A stretch of DNA of 64,000 nucleotides from positions 1 through 64,000 of the IMG/VR virus record IMGVR_UViG_3300042894_002372. One strand, given 5' to 3'. This stretch comes from a virus. This document shows, piece by piece, positions 48 through 29,486 of the stretch; the first letter of the stretch is position 1, and every line of letters begins with the position of its first letter. The notes beneath the pieces were generated by a model. The model did not search any database and had not been told where the DNA came from. It saw only the letters and a list, made by a program, of their open reading frames with translations. Made by a program: the position numbers and the translations under genes.

Positions 48-121
48 TGGTAGGGGTGCAGGGGAACGATCCCTGTTTTACGGATTAAAAGTCCGTTACT
101 TCACCTTAAAGTTTCACCCCC
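48..121 (-). tRNA. tRNA-Lys (UUU)
   Basis: A 74-nt cloverleaf with encoded CCA. The anticodon stem ACGGA/TCCGT closes the loop CTTTTAA, giving anticodon UUU. The acceptor stem GGGGGTG pairs with CACCCCT (one G-U). The T stem CAGGG/CCCTG is perfect but its loop is ATCGTTC instead of TTCGAAT, so the usual T54-A58 pair is replaced by A54-T58. The stop codon of the small upstream CDS (101-244) lies inside this tRNA. Confidence 0.85.
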
Positions 122-244
122 TAATGGGCTTTGTTTTTGTGCTCGACGCAGAGCCTTGTTGCTCTTACGATGCGAACCTGCTTTGCGGAACAGTGCAAGA
201 CGAACGAAGCAGTTACGTTCGCGCACGATCGATTTACGTTTCAT
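101..244 (-). CDS. Small basic protein ending inside tRNA-Lys
   Basis: A 47-residue ORF starting MKRKSIVRERNCFVRL and rich in Arg and Lys. An AAGGA Shine-Dalgarno sits six bases before the ATG. It fills the gap between tRNA-Ala and tRNA-Lys, and its last codons and TGA stop fall in the 5' half of tRNA-Lys on the same strand. It resembles small basic RxRNxFV-type proteins I recall from phages, of unknown role; the basic character suggests nucleic acid binding, which is inference. Processing of the tRNA would destroy the mRNA 3' end, so translation must happen before or instead of tRNA maturation. Confidence 0.6.
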   Translation of the reverse strand: MKRKSIVRERNCFVRLALFRKAGSHRKSNKALRRAQKQSPLGGETLR

Positions 245-339: not shown

Positions 340-624
340 AATATGCTCTGCATCCCCCGGCGGTAATTATAGAGTATCAACATAGATTAATCCGGAATCT
401 AACTCAACTAAGGTTAGCGATTCTATGCATCACACACTCCTTCCACCCGCTTCCCGACAGGGACCGTTATCGCATTGCTAGCGGCCTTTTGGTAAGAAGA
501 CTACCACCCTTGAGTAACGAACTCACTTCTCTCGTACGGGTCATACTAGCCAGGCGTTACCCCGACGGGTTCTTCTCTCAAATAAGCATAAGCATAGTAT
601 TCTTTCATACCTTGACGAGAATCT
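340..624. other. Unassigned 285-bp gap
   Basis: No convincing gene. On the minus strand two tiny frames follow each other: a 20-residue one at 546-608 (MKEYYAYAYLREEPVG...), whose start recalls the YxYAYLRE beginning of GIY-YIG homing nucleases, and a 25-residue one just after it. Neither has a good ribosome site. A few 5-bp hairpins (for example AGATT/AATCT near 383-399) are visible. It may be an untranslated leader of the tRNA array or a decayed homing-endonuclease remnant. Confidence 0.3.
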
Positions 625-2227: not shown

Positions 2228-2292
2228 GAGAGCCACGGTTGCAGGACCTAGTGTCTCGTTGCCGAGAGAAGTGTCCAGGCGATGTGGCTCTC
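2228..2292 (-). ncRNA. Small structured RNA between tRNA-Asp and tRNA-Glu
   Basis: A 65-nt element closed by a perfect 9-bp stem (GAGAGCCAC with GTGGCTCTC). Inside is a GGAC/GTCC pairing that encloses a TCTCG/CGAGA stem capped by GCAA, a GNRA tetraloop. It is tRNA-sized and sits in a tRNA slot but has no anticodon arm and no T loop. T4 also carries stable non-tRNA RNAs in its tRNA cluster, so an unassigned stable RNA is a reasonable reading. Function unknown. Confidence 0.5.
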
Positions 2293-2298
2293 AAAACT

Positions 2299-2381: not shown

Positions 2382-2596
2382 CTATTTTAAAACATACTAA
2401 AGGAACCATTGTGCATCTATGTCTACCTATAGGACCGTCTCCTATAGACCTGCACGGTCATTACTGCCTACATGCTCCGCCGCTTTTCTGGACATTTCTG
2501 CCCGGTTTCATGGACCTAGCTTGAGCGTGGGCGGCCCCACAGTCCTCGCCTTAGATCCCTAACGGTGTAGGTAACCTTTAATACGTTTTAAAATAG
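2382..2596 (-). ncRNA. Structured RNA with 22-bp closing helix
   Basis: No good ORF. The two ends (2575-2596 and 2382-2403) pair over 22 bp with only two G-U wobbles. Inside, CCTACA can pair with TGTAGG, GTGCA with TGCAC, and CTATAGGA/TCCTATAG forms an 8-bp hairpin with a 5-base loop. Upstream within the same expected transcript are a GTAA-capped hairpin (AACCC/GGGTT) and a 7-bp hairpin at 2641-2660. A strong promoter at 2666-2694 should start the transcript near 2659, and tRNA-Asp follows nine bases after the helix. It does not match tmRNA or RNase P RNA as far as I can read; a 6S-like or wholly new RNA is possible. Confidence 0.55.
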
Positions 2597-3169: not shown

Positions 3170-3261
3170 TGGCGGAAGACGGAGGAGTCGAACCCCATCC
3201 CTGTTAAGAGAACCTGGTTTTCAAGGCCAGTCGCAGGACCGGTCCCGCTGCATCATCTTCC
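3170..3261 (-). tRNA. tRNA-Ser (UGA)
   Basis: A 92-nt class II tRNA with long variable arm and encoded CCA. Anticodon loop CTTGAAA gives UGA; the last anticodon-stem pair is C-A. Acceptor GGAAGAT pairs with GTCTTCC with one wobble. Confidence 0.9.
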
Positions 3262-10156: not shown

Positions 10157-10858
10157 TTAGACTTTGTTGTGGGTATTGATATATTGTAACATAAAACGAT
10201 TCCAAAAGCTATGGCCATCCTTGCCAAAATGCCATGAATTGGGTGCAACTGTTTCTATTCCTGCGGCTCTGATTCGAGCATTATATGTGCCTTCTGAGTT
10301 ATACGGGTCAATGTAACTGTTGCCCCATTTTTTTGGTTTCTTAATACTACTAAAATCATTATTACCATTGAAGAAGATATGATTAACACCCAGTTTGTTT
10401 AGTTCGGTATGTAACTTCCAAATTTCATCGTGTGCTTGTTGAGTTTTTTGTTTCCAATCTACACTGACTACAAACTCTTTGTAGCGTTGTTTATGCTTGT
10501 CGGGAACATCATCCTGGCCACTGGCACCAATTTGGTAATATACTCCGTCAATCAACCATTCTTCTCGTTCCCAGGTGCTCCACTGTATTACCATCAGCAC
10601 TTCTTCAACATGATGTATTTTTTTTAACCAATCTCTGGTTGTGCGTAAAATTCTAGTGTTACTGCTGGCACTTTCAGCATCACAGTGAAAACTGGCTCGT
10701 AGTGCATCGCTTAACCGCCTGCCCCAACTCACTGCTAAATTTTCTGGATGCGGAGCACGACCCATGTAAAACAACTGTCCATCGTCCATGGCAAATGCAT
10801 GCGGATTAACTGCTTCGGCAGCCGCAGTGTGGCTATCACCGTTTACATAAAGAATCAT
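10157..10858 (-). CDS. SGNH-like hydrolase domain protein
   Basis: A 233-residue protein with block I YVNGDSHTAAAEAV at the N-terminus (Ser nucleophile in GDSHT), SWGRRLSDAL, an SSNTRIL block, and FGKDGHSFW near the C-terminus (catalytic Asp-x-x-His type). It is a paralogue of the next gene, with which it overlaps by four bases. Possibly esterase or O-acyl transfer on glycans; no signal peptide. Confidence 0.6.
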   Translation of the reverse strand: MILYVNGDSHTAAAEAVNPHAFAMDDGQLFYMGRAPHPENLAVSWGRRLSDALRASFHCDAESASSNTRILRTTRDWLKKIHHVEEVLMVIQWSTWEREEWLIDGVYYQIGASGQDDVPDKHKQRYKEFVVSVDWKQKTQQAHDEIWKLHTELNKLGVNHIFFNGNNDFSSIKKPKKWGNSYIDPYNSEGTYNARIRAAGIETVAPNSWHFGKDGHSFWNRFMLQYINTHNKV

Positions 10859-11541
10859 ACAATGTTGTGTTTTGTAATATGGTCATGCATGACATTTGCC
10901 CATTGAGTGTGAGCCGCACTTTCGTAGTGTTGCCATCCTGGAGTTATTTCTTTATAACCTTGGCGCTGGCACCATTCAGTGTAGATTAATTCTTTAGAGT
11001 AAGGTGTTAAAAATGCATTGTTCCAGTCAAGTTGGTTTACTTCACTTGGCAAAATAAACTCATCAAACGCATTGAAAAACAAATGCGGAATTTTTTTGTA
11101 CTCTAACAACTTGTGTATGTTAAAAATTTTATTGTGCCAATAAGCACCTTGTACCAACCGCCAGTAACCATCAGGTTGCACATTTTCAACATAATGTTTG
11201 TATCGATCTTTATATTCCTCAGGAACAGGAATACCTACTCCAATTTGGTTTATTTCCCAAAATCGTCCCTTGCCCCACTCGTCAACTAAAAACCATTGTA
11301 CGCGATTAAACTGTGTCCATCCAACCACTACTAGATCAGGTTTTGGACTGCTGGGATTGTTTAAAAAATCCAGTGTTTGTTCGTAAATTAAATCATTACT
11401 TGCACCCGGGGTTGCATCGTTGATAAATTTTGTTTTGTATTGCCCGTTGAATCTTTCGGCTAACTTAGGTGCCATTCCGTGAGTAGACTCCGGCAACTCT
11501 GTACCTGCTACGTTACTATCACCGTTGAAATATATCAGCAT
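10855..11541 (-). CDS. SGNH-like hydrolase domain protein
   Basis: A 228-residue protein starting MLIYFNGDSNVAGTEL. The ATG overlaps the upstream TAA by one base (TAATG), which decides the start against a 40-residue longer frame. Block I is GDSN; DATPGASNDLIYEQTLDFL is the second block; ESAAHTQW may supply the His. Tandem duplicate of 10157-10858 and related in layout to 625-1386. Confidence 0.6.
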   Translation of the reverse strand: MLIYFNGDSNVAGTELPESTHGMAPKLAERFNGQYKTKFINDATPGASNDLIYEQTLDFLNNPSSPKPDLVVVGWTQFNRVQWFLVDEWGKGRFWEINQIGVGIPVPEEYKDRYKHYVENVQPDGYWRLVQGAYWHNKIFNIHKLLEYKKIPHLFFNAFDEFILPSEVNQLDWNNAFLTPYSKELIYTEWCQRQGYKEITPGWQHYESAAHTQWANVMHDHITKHNIV

Positions 11542-13044: not shown

Positions 13045-13899
13045 TTATTTTCCCCATCCGTTACCCCACAGATCAACGTGCAATCTTGGAGTATAGTAGT
13101 ATCCACGCACAAGTGCCCAGTCTGCAACATTCACACGGTTCTCTGCATATGGAGCAACAACACCACCTTGTGGCATAACATATACCACGCCTTCAAATCC
13201 TGCGGCACGATAAGCGGCCACAGCACGATCTACTTCTTCAAAGTGTACTTCGCTGTCAATCACAAACTTAAGATACACAGTACCAAAGTTTTGATAGTCT
13301 GCCACAATCTCGGGTTTAATTGCCTCTGCCCATGCTTCTCCGCTGGCACTGAGTTTGGGACTTACAGAGAATGTAAGTTCATTGTGTCCTGCCAGCCATG
13401 TGTTAAGATATTCTCTAAACTTGGGCTGTAACTTTTGAGTACCATTGGTCTCAAATGTAACATTCTTAATGCCACGCATATCGTCATGATCAAACAAGTC
13501 TTGATATGTACGTTGCCATCCCAGCAATGGCTCACCGCCTGTGATCACAAGATGTGTGTCATTGCCTGTGCGATTGGTCCAACGACGGTCAGGAATCAAG
13601 TCTAGCATTTTGTTTACTAGTTCATCAATCTCATATGTAGGGCTAAGTTCTTTGAAGTCTGGATGCCAACTTGCATAACTGTCGCAACCGGTGTTCACAA
13701 GCGGCAGTTCTTCAAATGTTTTATACAAGTGTACACTCTTGGCAACTTCATCTGCTTCTGTGCTTTTCTCCCCAGGCCGGCACCCGAAACCTGCACAGGT
13801 AAAGTTACAGCCAAATGTGCGTAAAAACACACTGGGTACACCAATAAAGCGACCTTCGCCTTGTGCCGAATAGAATAGTTCTGATACTTTTAATTTCAT
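13045..13899 (-). CDS. queE: 7-carboxy-7-deazaguanine synthase-like radical SAM protein
   Basis: A 284-residue protein (FYSAQGEGRFIGVPSVFLRTFGCNFTC) with the QueE N-terminus. QueE converts carboxy-tetrahydropterin to CDG, a step to preQ0. The cluster motif is unusual: CNFTC is followed by GFGC at +4 and by GCDSYASWHP about 45 residues later, so the third cluster Cys is not obvious. TGGEPLLGW is the SAM-binding GGE motif. Works with QueD (18666-19172) and FolE (21939-22769). Its own strong promoter lies at 13905-13934. Confidence 0.85.
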   Translation of the reverse strand: MKLKVSELFYSAQGEGRFIGVPSVFLRTFGCNFTCAGFGCRPGEKSTEADEVAKSVHLYKTFEELPLVNTGCDSYASWHPDFKELSPTYEIDELVNKMLDLIPDRRWTNRTGNDTHLVITGGEPLLGWQRTYQDLFDHDDMRGIKNVTFETNGTQKLQPKFREYLNTWLAGHNELTFSVSPKLSASGEAWAEAIKPEIVADYQNFGTVYLKFVIDSEVHFEEVDRAVAAYRAAGFEGVVYVMPQGGVVAPYAENRVNVADWALVRGYYYTPRLHVDLWGNGWGK

Positions 13900-27385: not shown

Positions 27386-27921
27386 AATTTCTCGTCCTTT
27401 GTGTATTTAGACCATGGAGTGAATTTGTTTCGATTTTGTAATGTGTGTAGGCTATGGCACCAAACACCAGGGTTGGTTGCCGCAAAGTCTCGATCGTCTA
27501 TTTTAAGTGTGGTATTATACCCCAGCAGACGGATGTAAGGAAGTTTTACAGAGATCATTGGAATAAAGTTATTGTGCTCGCACAATCCACCTTCAAGCAA
27601 TCCCTCAACACACTTGATATCAATGTCTAGTGTGCATAGATGTCCTTTGTTTAAAAAATGTTGGATCATCTGTTCCCAGGGAGACCAAAACACAGAATCA
27701 TTGGTTTGTATGCTAGAAGGAAAACTCTGATTGGCACCAAAATAAATGTGCTCAATGTGTTGTGTTGCATCTTCATACAAGGCAAAGTCATCTAGCCAAT
27801 CTTGAATTTCACTGACTGGCTGTAACCCCACTACAAACAATGTTTTCTTACCAAATGCTGGAGTATGTTCTACTTCTGTGCCTGTGAAAAACTTAACATT
27901 TTCGTGGCCTGCTCGGTTCAT
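27382..27921 (-). CDS. Conserved protein next to the DpdA-like gene
   Basis: A 179-residue protein with FGANQSFPSS, CTLDIDIKCVEGLLEGGLCE, FIPMISVKLPYIRLLGYNTTLKIDDRDF and NPGVWCHSLHTL. I recall close relatives in other large phages beside the same genes. No fold recognised. Overlaps the DpdA-like gene by four bases, so joint expression with DNA modification is likely. Confidence 0.65.
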   Translation of the reverse strand: MNRAGHENVKFFTGTEVEHTPAFGKKTLFVVGLQPVSEIQDWLDDFALYEDATQHIEHIYFGANQSFPSSIQTNDSVFWSPWEQMIQHFLNKGHLCTLDIDIKCVEGLLEGGLCEHNNFIPMISVKLPYIRLLGYNTTLKIDDRDFAATNPGVWCHSLHTLQNRNKFTPWSKYTKDEKL

Positions 27922-29486
27922 TTAGATTGTTCCTGTTCAAGTTTATCCAAATTGTCTACAGACAATTCCTCTTCATCTGATTGTACACTATCTTCGGTAT
28001 CTGTGTCAACAGTTTCGAACAGGCTGTTGAATTGAGTGTGTGCGTTCTTGGCTTTTTTGCCTTTGAACCCACGTGTGCCCACAATGTCCATCCAATAACG
28101 ATCGTAGGATTCAATAATGGCTTCTGCTTCGGCACGATCAGCAGTGGCAAAGATTGCTTCTACAATGTCCTCAAACTTGGTATGGTCACCGCATGTGTCC
28201 CACATCATTCGAGGCCTATTGCCAGCATCAAATTCACGATTGGCACGTTGTACAGACTCTAAGTGTAACCAAACATTATGGCCCATTAGCAAAGCATACG
28301 AGAAACTGTCCCAACTGGTTTTGCCTTCCTTACCAATCTTATTTAGGTCACCTGGCTTGTAATAGCAAATATCTTTCATTTGTAAATGCTGACTGATAGG
28401 ACTGTCTTCAAATGTATCAACCAATCCATCTGCCACAACACCTTGACTGAATGGGCGTGTGTCTGCGGCATATTTCTTGTCATCCACAATGGGGTTCATT
28501 CTGTAACTCCACTTGCCGTTGTGTGGCAACACAATCTCGTGGTACACTTGTCCGTTGGCTGTGGCAAGGAATGGGCTGGCACAATCAAAGGAAATAGTAA
28601 ATTGTGGATTCACATACTTTCTAACAGCCCTTTGAATCACGGTGAGTAACACAGCCCATTCCAACTTGCTTGTGCCCAAGAAATGCATCCAATCATGAAC
28701 ACCCGGTTGCAACAAGTTATCATGACGCAGTGCTACCAATCGTCGTAGCACCAAATGCACATCGCACATGTTCTGACCACCCATTGACCACCCATTAAAG
28801 TGTGTGTCGGGATATTTTATCGGATCACAGTACTCTTTCATCATGTCATACCAGCGATCTGCATCAGCATGATTGGCACCTTGCAACACATTCAAGAATT
28901 TGGCACCACCATTCTTAACACCTTTACGATGCTTCATAAAGTAATCGTTGTTGAACTTGGTAGCGTCAACTGCTTCTTGCAGTGTGGTAATTTGACAAGC
29001 CGCCGATGCTTTCTTGTCATGAATGACCCAGGTTGGAATATCTAGGATCATGCCATAGTCAGACACACCGTCTAACCATTTAAGCACAGCGTCACGTTTC
29101 TTTTGTGCTTTGGCACAGCCTGAGTTGGCTTTCCAATCGCCTTCCCATAAGCCTTTAGCAATCTGGAATCCACCTGAGTCGCCTAATATTACAGTGCCAG
29201 GTTCTCGATTACGAACCATGTCCTCTGACCAGTCCTGCTTGGTCAAATCCAAATTAGCATGACCACCGGAGTACAAACTCCACCGATATGGGAACAGACC
29301 CGTTTGACTGTTGAGCCAATTCATCTGTTCCATGTCCGGCATGCCCTGTGGCATACGTGCAGGTTCTATGTATGGCCCATTAACTGGGTCACGTTGCTTG
29401 CCTATGAACGTGGCATAGAATCCTGAAATGGCAGGCAAGAACACAGCATAGTCATTCTGTTTGGCAGTTAAGTTATCTTGCGTCAT
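27918..29486 (-). CDS. dpdA: DpdA-like tRNA-guanine transglycosylase homologue
   Basis: A 522-residue protein with the TGT-type barrel: VILGDSGGFQIAKG near residue 100 (catalytic Asp region), YGMILDIPTWV, NGWSMGGQNMC, HFLGTSKLEWAVLL and FTISFDCASPFLATA. DpdA enzymes swap guanine in DNA for preQ0 or a derivative, protecting phage DNA from restriction. The upstream precursor genes folE, queD and queE are in the window; queC is not. The last 40 residues are an acidic tail. Confidence 0.8.
   Translation of the reverse strand: MTQDNLTAKQNDYAVFLPAISGFYATFIGKQRDPVNGPYIEPARMPQGMPDMEQMNWLNSQTGLFPYRWSLYSGGHANLDLTKQDWSEDMVRNREPGTVILGDSGGFQIAKGLWEGDWKANSGCAKAQKKRDAVLKWLDGVSDYGMILDIPTWVIHDKKASAACQITTLQEAVDATKFNNDYFMKHRKGVKNGGAKFLNVLQGANHADADRWYDMMKEYCDPIKYPDTHFNGWSMGGQNMCDVHLVLRRLVALRHDNLLQPGVHDWMHFLGTSKLEWAVLLTVIQRAVRKYVNPQFTISFDCASPFLATANGQVYHEIVLPHNGKWSYRMNPIVDDKKYAADTRPFSQGVVADGLVDTFEDSPISQHLQMKDICYYKPGDLNKIGKEGKTSWDSFSYALLMGHNVWLHLESVQRANREFDAGNRPRMMWDTCGDHTKFEDIVEAIFATADRAEAEAIIESYDRYWMDIVGTRGFKGKKAKNAHTQFNSLFETVDTDTEDSVQSDEEELSVDNLDKLEQEQSK

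Follow-up and report, generated by a model that had tools for sequence, protein, structure and literature searches.

The window, by which we mean the whole analysed stretch of 64,000 nucleotides, is part of an 80-kb IMG/VR record, and it probably comes from a giant-myovirus lineage, given that the nearest relatives of its DNA polymerase are those of Sinorhizobium phage Phosso, Agrobacterium phage Atu_ph07 and the 121Q group. On its minus strand a tRNA operon is headed by a structured RNA of about 190–215 nt, which is identified from sequence, its transcription not having been shown. The features of this operon, from 5' to 3', are as follows:

2764–2792, minus: putative promoter TTGACA-17-TACAAT, an 11/12 match to the consensus
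2666–2694, minus: putative promoter TTGACT-17-TATACT, a 10/12 match to the consensus
2627–2638, minus: boxA GUUCUUUAAAAA, some 30–40 nt ahead of the stalk, kept in array-type relatives
2596 to 2382, minus: the RNA with its closing stalk (covariance-model match 2388–2576, 201.8 bits; covariation; fold z of −4.1)
2575–2596, minus: 5' arm of the stalk P1, 22 pairs with 2403–2382, with two-sided changes at 12/22 pairs in relatives
2576–2402, minus: core of the RNA, GGUUACC...GGUUCC
2382–2403, minus: 3' arm of P1, supported by its pairing with 2596–2575 and by covariation
2299–2373, minus: tRNA-Asp(GUC), the next gene of the operon

A sequence-only reading of the region had described an unknown RNA without an ORF, closed by a 22-bp helix beside the tRNA array. 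The helix is indeed there, with 22 consecutive pairs between the two arms, and on the minus strand it runs unbroken and includes one G.U and one U.G pair. The two compensating G-U pairs that the reading had counted in its favour hold for a minus-strand transcript and fail for the plus strand, where both positions become A.C/C.A mismatches. We scanned the 64 kb on both strands for helices of 18 or more consecutive pairs with the spacing of the stalk; this was the only one, and on the minus strand it extends to 25 pairs (2599 to 2379). Folding of 2362–2616 gave −89.9 kcal/mol for the minus strand (z = −4.1, with 0/200 shuffles as good) and −70 kcal/mol for the plus strand (z = −3.2). Because the G.U pairs form on the minus strand only, and because the neighbouring tRNAs (all on the minus strand) and the promoters point in the same direction, we assign the RNA to that strand; the plus-strand reading was rejected, as it would break the stalk at two A.C mismatches and would run against the direction of the tRNAs, promoters and boxA. 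Inside the RNA the minus strand has no ORF of at least 30 aa, and the ORFs of the plus strand there have 37–47 aa. Relatives of the RNA differ by indels whose lengths are not multiples of three.

The core is built of nested three-way junctions, and the elements of the predicted fold are the following:

2467–2571, minus: P2 domain, CCUACACCGUU (2571–2561) with GGCGG/UGUAGG (2481–2467), enclosing P3 and P4; covariation at CG/GC/UA and GC/AU positions
2512–2558, minus: P3 (2558–2552 with 2518–2512) and P3b (2540–2536 with 2531–2527); two-sided changes
2535–2532, minus: P3b tetraloop G[A/C]CG, in the window GCCG; G[A/C]CG in 41/50 members
2490–2503, minus: P4 hairpin GGGCA-GAAA-UGUCC with a GNRA loop; two-sided changes
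2465–2458, minus: junction AGUAAUGA
within 2404–2465, minus: exchangeable 3' arm, P5 (2459–2451 with 2415–2404) and P6 (2447–2441 with 2433–2427), both covarying
2440–2434, minus: P6 loop A-GACGG-U

The fold is carried by covariation, the lack of which in relatives had been named beforehand as one of the results that would refute the proposed RNA; it proved strong in core and stalk alike and backs the inner hairpins, so that the closing helix and the RNA within it are well supported. RNAalifold on 29 MAFFT-aligned sequences found two-sided changes at 30/55 pairs. In a hand-set structure of 45 pairs applied to 21 sequences, 97.1% of cells were paired, 21 pairs showed two-sided changes, and the covariation score was 0.445, against 0.170 for shuffled and at most 0.10 for slid controls. 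Fitting 54 distinct members to the model gave 96.1% paired, two-sided changes at 27/45 core pairs and a score of 0.376 (shuffled 0.133, slid at most 0.074), a fit that leans toward the structure itself, while the stalk alone, in 24 members, scored 0.446 against 0.167 when shuffled. Two apparent invariances come from the searches: P5 was constant in the first set because the search pattern demanded it, and covaries in the second scan, and GGUUACCUA.ACCRYUAGG cannot vary in the second set, since a motif scan fixes its own motif.

Conservation sits in the interior of the RNA, not only in its stalk. The P4 loop is of the GNRA type in many members, not in all, and the arm is sometimes longer. The P6 loop, A-GACG(U/G)-U in 37/50 members, recurs inside most of the otherwise unrelated arms, and GACG loops are missing in a few divergent members. 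That the loop is kept while the arm stem is exchanged is what would be expected of a binding site, for which no partner is known. Types of 3' arm and types of P3b occur in many combinations, which indicates recombination between phages.

Among 13 related contigs gathered through a neighbouring carboxypeptidase gene, nine carry the RNA, at 77–100% identity. A two-part motif scan of IMG/VR returned 47 stretches, two of which (L043 and L061) look like chance matches in coding sequence, and a scan with the 5' motif returned at least 119; most of the listed 5'-motif matches fit the covariance model, and a few (e.g., L091, L095 and L116) do not. The model itself has 64 matches in the searched sources. 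Contigs that it matches reach 347 kb, and one motif-bearing stretch (L145) lies on a contig of 383 kb. Each of 11 larger contigs has a single copy; in one stretch (L153) the RNA lies in a tandem duplication. The model did not find the RNA in Phosso, Atu_ph07, 2.275.O or 121Q, blastn with six diverse queries found no phage in INPHARED that carries it (within the sensitivity of blastn), and of 21 pattern matches in bacterial genomes none was credible by the model. The searched collections consist of metagenomic fragments, and a missing match is valid only for those collections.

The RNA occurs in two settings. In the array setting it is usually the first gene of the operon, in the order tandem sigma70 promoters, boxA, RNA and then a close tRNA; some divergent members are instead placed directly behind a tRNA. 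The following tRNA, in 34 cases, is Asp in 20, Glu in nine, Leu in three and Ser in two, compared with background frequencies of 8% for Asp and 7% for Glu, a statistic that is weakened by the shared ancestry of the members. In the stand-alone setting, which comprises 32/66 distinct members, no tRNA is close behind; many of these members have a consensus promoter with its predicted start at the stalk, at many of these loci a separate promoter for the next gene lies soon 3' of the stalk, and boxA is absent. The strong dedicated promoter of the sequence-only reading is found in stand-alone relatives, and in the window it is an operon promoter common to the following tRNAs. Shuffled sequence yields as many promoter-like matches as this region does, so the case for the promoters rests on the conservation of their position and sequence in relatives. 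Massilia has the 12-mer GTTCTTTAAMAA both ahead of 16S and within its 16S-23S spacer, and Paucibacter and Comamonas have it in the corresponding spacers. As the boxA 12-mer is identical in these rrn operons, the array leader of the RNA carries a genuine rrn signal of Burkholderiales, which does not name the host of the phage. Of two marks of an rRNA-operon-like layout, an rrn boxA between promoter and stalk is present in the array setting only, and a stalk kept as a helix by compensatory change is present as well. The first reading had missed that the RNA is on the minus strand, that its operon is led by boxA, that stand-alone copies exist, that the arm is modular and that the family is widely distributed.

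The same loci hold three more conserved RNAs, apparently still without names, which we call RNA-B, RNA-C and RNA-D. In some members of the stand-alone group RNA-B (about 87 nt) lies between promoter and RNA (upstream of the RNA in L015, L020, L026, L031, L036, L037, L040 and L052). RNA-C, a conserved element of 66 nt (GAGAGCCAC...GUGGCUCUC), is at 2229–2294 (minus) of the window, between tRNA-Asp and tRNA-Glu, and is followed by a short U-run; it may resemble a terminator or have a regulatory role. RNA-D (about 180–230 nt) lies between tRNA-Tyr and tRNA-Ala, at about 365–572 (minus) of the window, where ORFs intervene between tRNA-Tyr and RNA-D, and it is also present in L005, L006, L009, L011, L013, L046 and others. 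A conserved-looking short segment, ACAGGGUG...CUGAGC...GCCCGCCCAAUCUAAUU, follows the RNA on its 3' side at some stand-alone loci (L089, L098 and L151).

Other features of the window were also recorded. At 3174–3261 (minus) there is a tRNA-like gene that ARAGORN missed and Rfam matched weakly to tRNA-Sec (35 bits, below the cut-off); judged by eye, it resembles a tRNA-Ser whose anticodon is UGA. A basic 47-aa ORF at 101–244 (minus), between tRNA-Ala and tRNA-Lys, is conserved in relatives and has no Pfam match over its 47 residues. By eye, the ORF at 27918–29486 (minus) is TGT/DpdA-like (DSGGFQ motif; no Pfam match) and that at 13045–13899 (minus) resembles a QueE-like radical SAM protein, and these resemblances together would suggest 7-deazaguanine DNA modification.

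The explanation that we prefer, and hold to be rather probable, is that the phage encodes a structured non-coding RNA of a new family, which acts in trans, is made in the manner of a miniature rRNA operon and docks on an RNA-binding machine of the host. Host RNA polymerase would start at the two sigma70-type promoters and boxA would load the host rRNA antitermination complex; once the RNA had folded, host RNase III would cut the leader-trailer stalk of 22–25 bp, and RNase P would free the adjacent tRNA-Asp. What remained would be a compact product of about 190–215 nt that presumably accumulates, with a constant two-junction core, loops of the G[A/C]CG type on two arms and one arm exchanged between phages. 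To hypothesize further, the two loop-bearing arms may dock on the host machine, and the RNA may act there as a decoy or scaffold, most likely in translation or stable-RNA metabolism, although what kind of target this might be is guesswork. The RNA, its strand, structure and distribution, the promoters, boxA and the autonomy of the gene are supported by comparison of sequences alone; processing, abundance, target and effect are inferred. For this explanation we count the covariation, which in core and stalk greatly exceeds that of the shuffled and slid controls, along with the wide distribution, the evidence for the strand, the autonomy of the gene, the rrn boxA of array-type leaders, the loop kept on exchanged arms and the single copy in each of the 11 larger contigs. 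Against it we count the members with RNA-B upstream (e.g., L036 and L037), which have only a short stalk, and from which it follows that release by RNase III is not universal, together with the stand-alone members without boxA and the few divergent members without GACG loops. A more specific version, in which an accessory RNA reaches the host ribosome or stable-RNA machinery by the rRNA-style route of promoter, boxA and stalk, and reprograms translation together with the phage Asp/Glu tRNAs and the companion RNAs, seems unlikely to us as it stands.

Several other explanations were weighed. A cis-acting antitermination element of the nut or put kind, where the nascent RNA stays on the polymerase and allows readthrough of terminators in the tRNA operon or in early genes, would account for an RNA just 3' of strong promoters at transcript starts, with boxA in the array setting. 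We doubt it strongly, as each larger contig has a single copy, which argues against a general antitermination element, the stand-alone setting lacks boxA, the next gene's own promoter comes right after the stalk in several stand-alone copies, and a stalk of this kind would favour release of the RNA. We are just as doubtful of a counter-defence or regulatory decoy, whose arm would be in an arms race with a defence factor or regulator of the host and whose core would be a scaffold. The many combinations of arm type and P3b type are what phage recombination would give; however, no defence partner has been identified and the core is conserved beyond what an arms-race surface needs. This reading also overlaps the docking, trans-acting RNA that we prefer, the target being the sole difference.

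A structural RNA that, like GOLLD and ROOL, assembles itself into oligomers or cages is still harder to credit. It would share their broad niche in phage genomes near tRNA islands (PMC12286853), and one contig has both GOLLD and the RNA; however, the RNA is a quarter to a third of the size of GOLLD or ROOL, which argues against such a cage, it has no conserved palindromic loop (the window loop GACGG is not self-complementary), and it has no Rfam match to either. That the RNA is a cassette acting in cis on the processing or spacing of tRNA operons can hardly be maintained, for although it directly abuts tRNAs in array members and the next tRNA is Asp or Glu in 29/34 cases, no tRNA follows in roughly half of the members and the interior is conserved as well as the stalk. 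The autonomy of the gene, with no tRNA behind it and a promoter of its own, argues against such a spacer and against a riboswitch. The riboswitch, spacer, antitermination and cage readings are thus disfavoured on the available comparisons, and none of them is excluded by experiment.

Since the multi-junction fold is strongly conserved, the RNA must bind or do something specific. It represents an apparently undescribed family that is common in large environmental phages, and its rRNA-like layout suggests phage use of the host pathway of rRNA antitermination and processing for stable RNAs of their own. The constant core, exchangeable arm and kept loop make it practical to find the target by pull-down.

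With regard to known RNAs, no Rfam 15 family matches the RNA, at the gathering score or at E ≤ 5, as was seen when the Rfam search that the sequence-only reading had proposed (6S, GOLLD and others) was carried out. That reading had also judged the RNA to be neither tmRNA nor RNase P RNA, and this is borne out: ARAGORN reports no tmRNA, and no Rfam match to tmRNA, RNase P RNA, 6S RNA, SRP RNA or rRNA overlaps the site, also at E ≤ 5. The GOLLD model (RF02032), including its conserved 3' region, does not match the RNA at E ≤ 5 either, and no Rfam match to ROOL was obtained. A literature search, which did not cover preprints or all papers, found no description of the RNA. A bacterial Y RNA partnered by Ro60 was rejected, there being no Rfam match and no TROVE domain (PF05731) in 12 records, some of them fragments. 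Mimicry of rRNA was likewise rejected: GUACGAGAG, which is sarcin-ricin-like in the window's RNA between tRNA-Tyr and tRNA-Ala, is absent from most relatives, and the 16S-like UGCACAAUGG of the RNA under study is lost in divergent members.

Nearest in kind is GOLLD. Like GOLLD and ROOL, which the literature places near tRNA islands of phages and for which no function is known (PMC12286853), the RNA is phage-borne, structured, of unknown function and often near such islands; it differs in being about 190–215 nt where they are 600–800 nt (ROOL about 600), with no similarity in sequence or covariance model. Among 13 contigs GOLLD occurs in one only (G010), at a place other than that of the RNA. 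In L051, a GOLLD with an embedded tRNA (10468–10931) is a separate gene of the same tRNA array as the RNA. The antitermination RNAs HK022 put and lambda nut are found close to promoters, where phage transcripts begin. The RNA resembles them in this position and in having boxA in one setting, and is unlike them in being larger, multi-junction, stalk-closed and present once per contig, with a boxA that is not universal. The combination of a leader-trailer helix with boxA is an rrn theme (PMC10250234). The array setting is like an rRNA operon leader in its promoters, boxA (the 12-mer of Burkholderiales rrn) and long closing stalk, followed by tRNAs, whereas the RNA within the stalk is not rRNA by Rfam and the stand-alone setting has no boxA. 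Apparently, then, this is a new RNA family within the broad kind of phage-borne, structured, stable RNAs, with an unusual operon layout.
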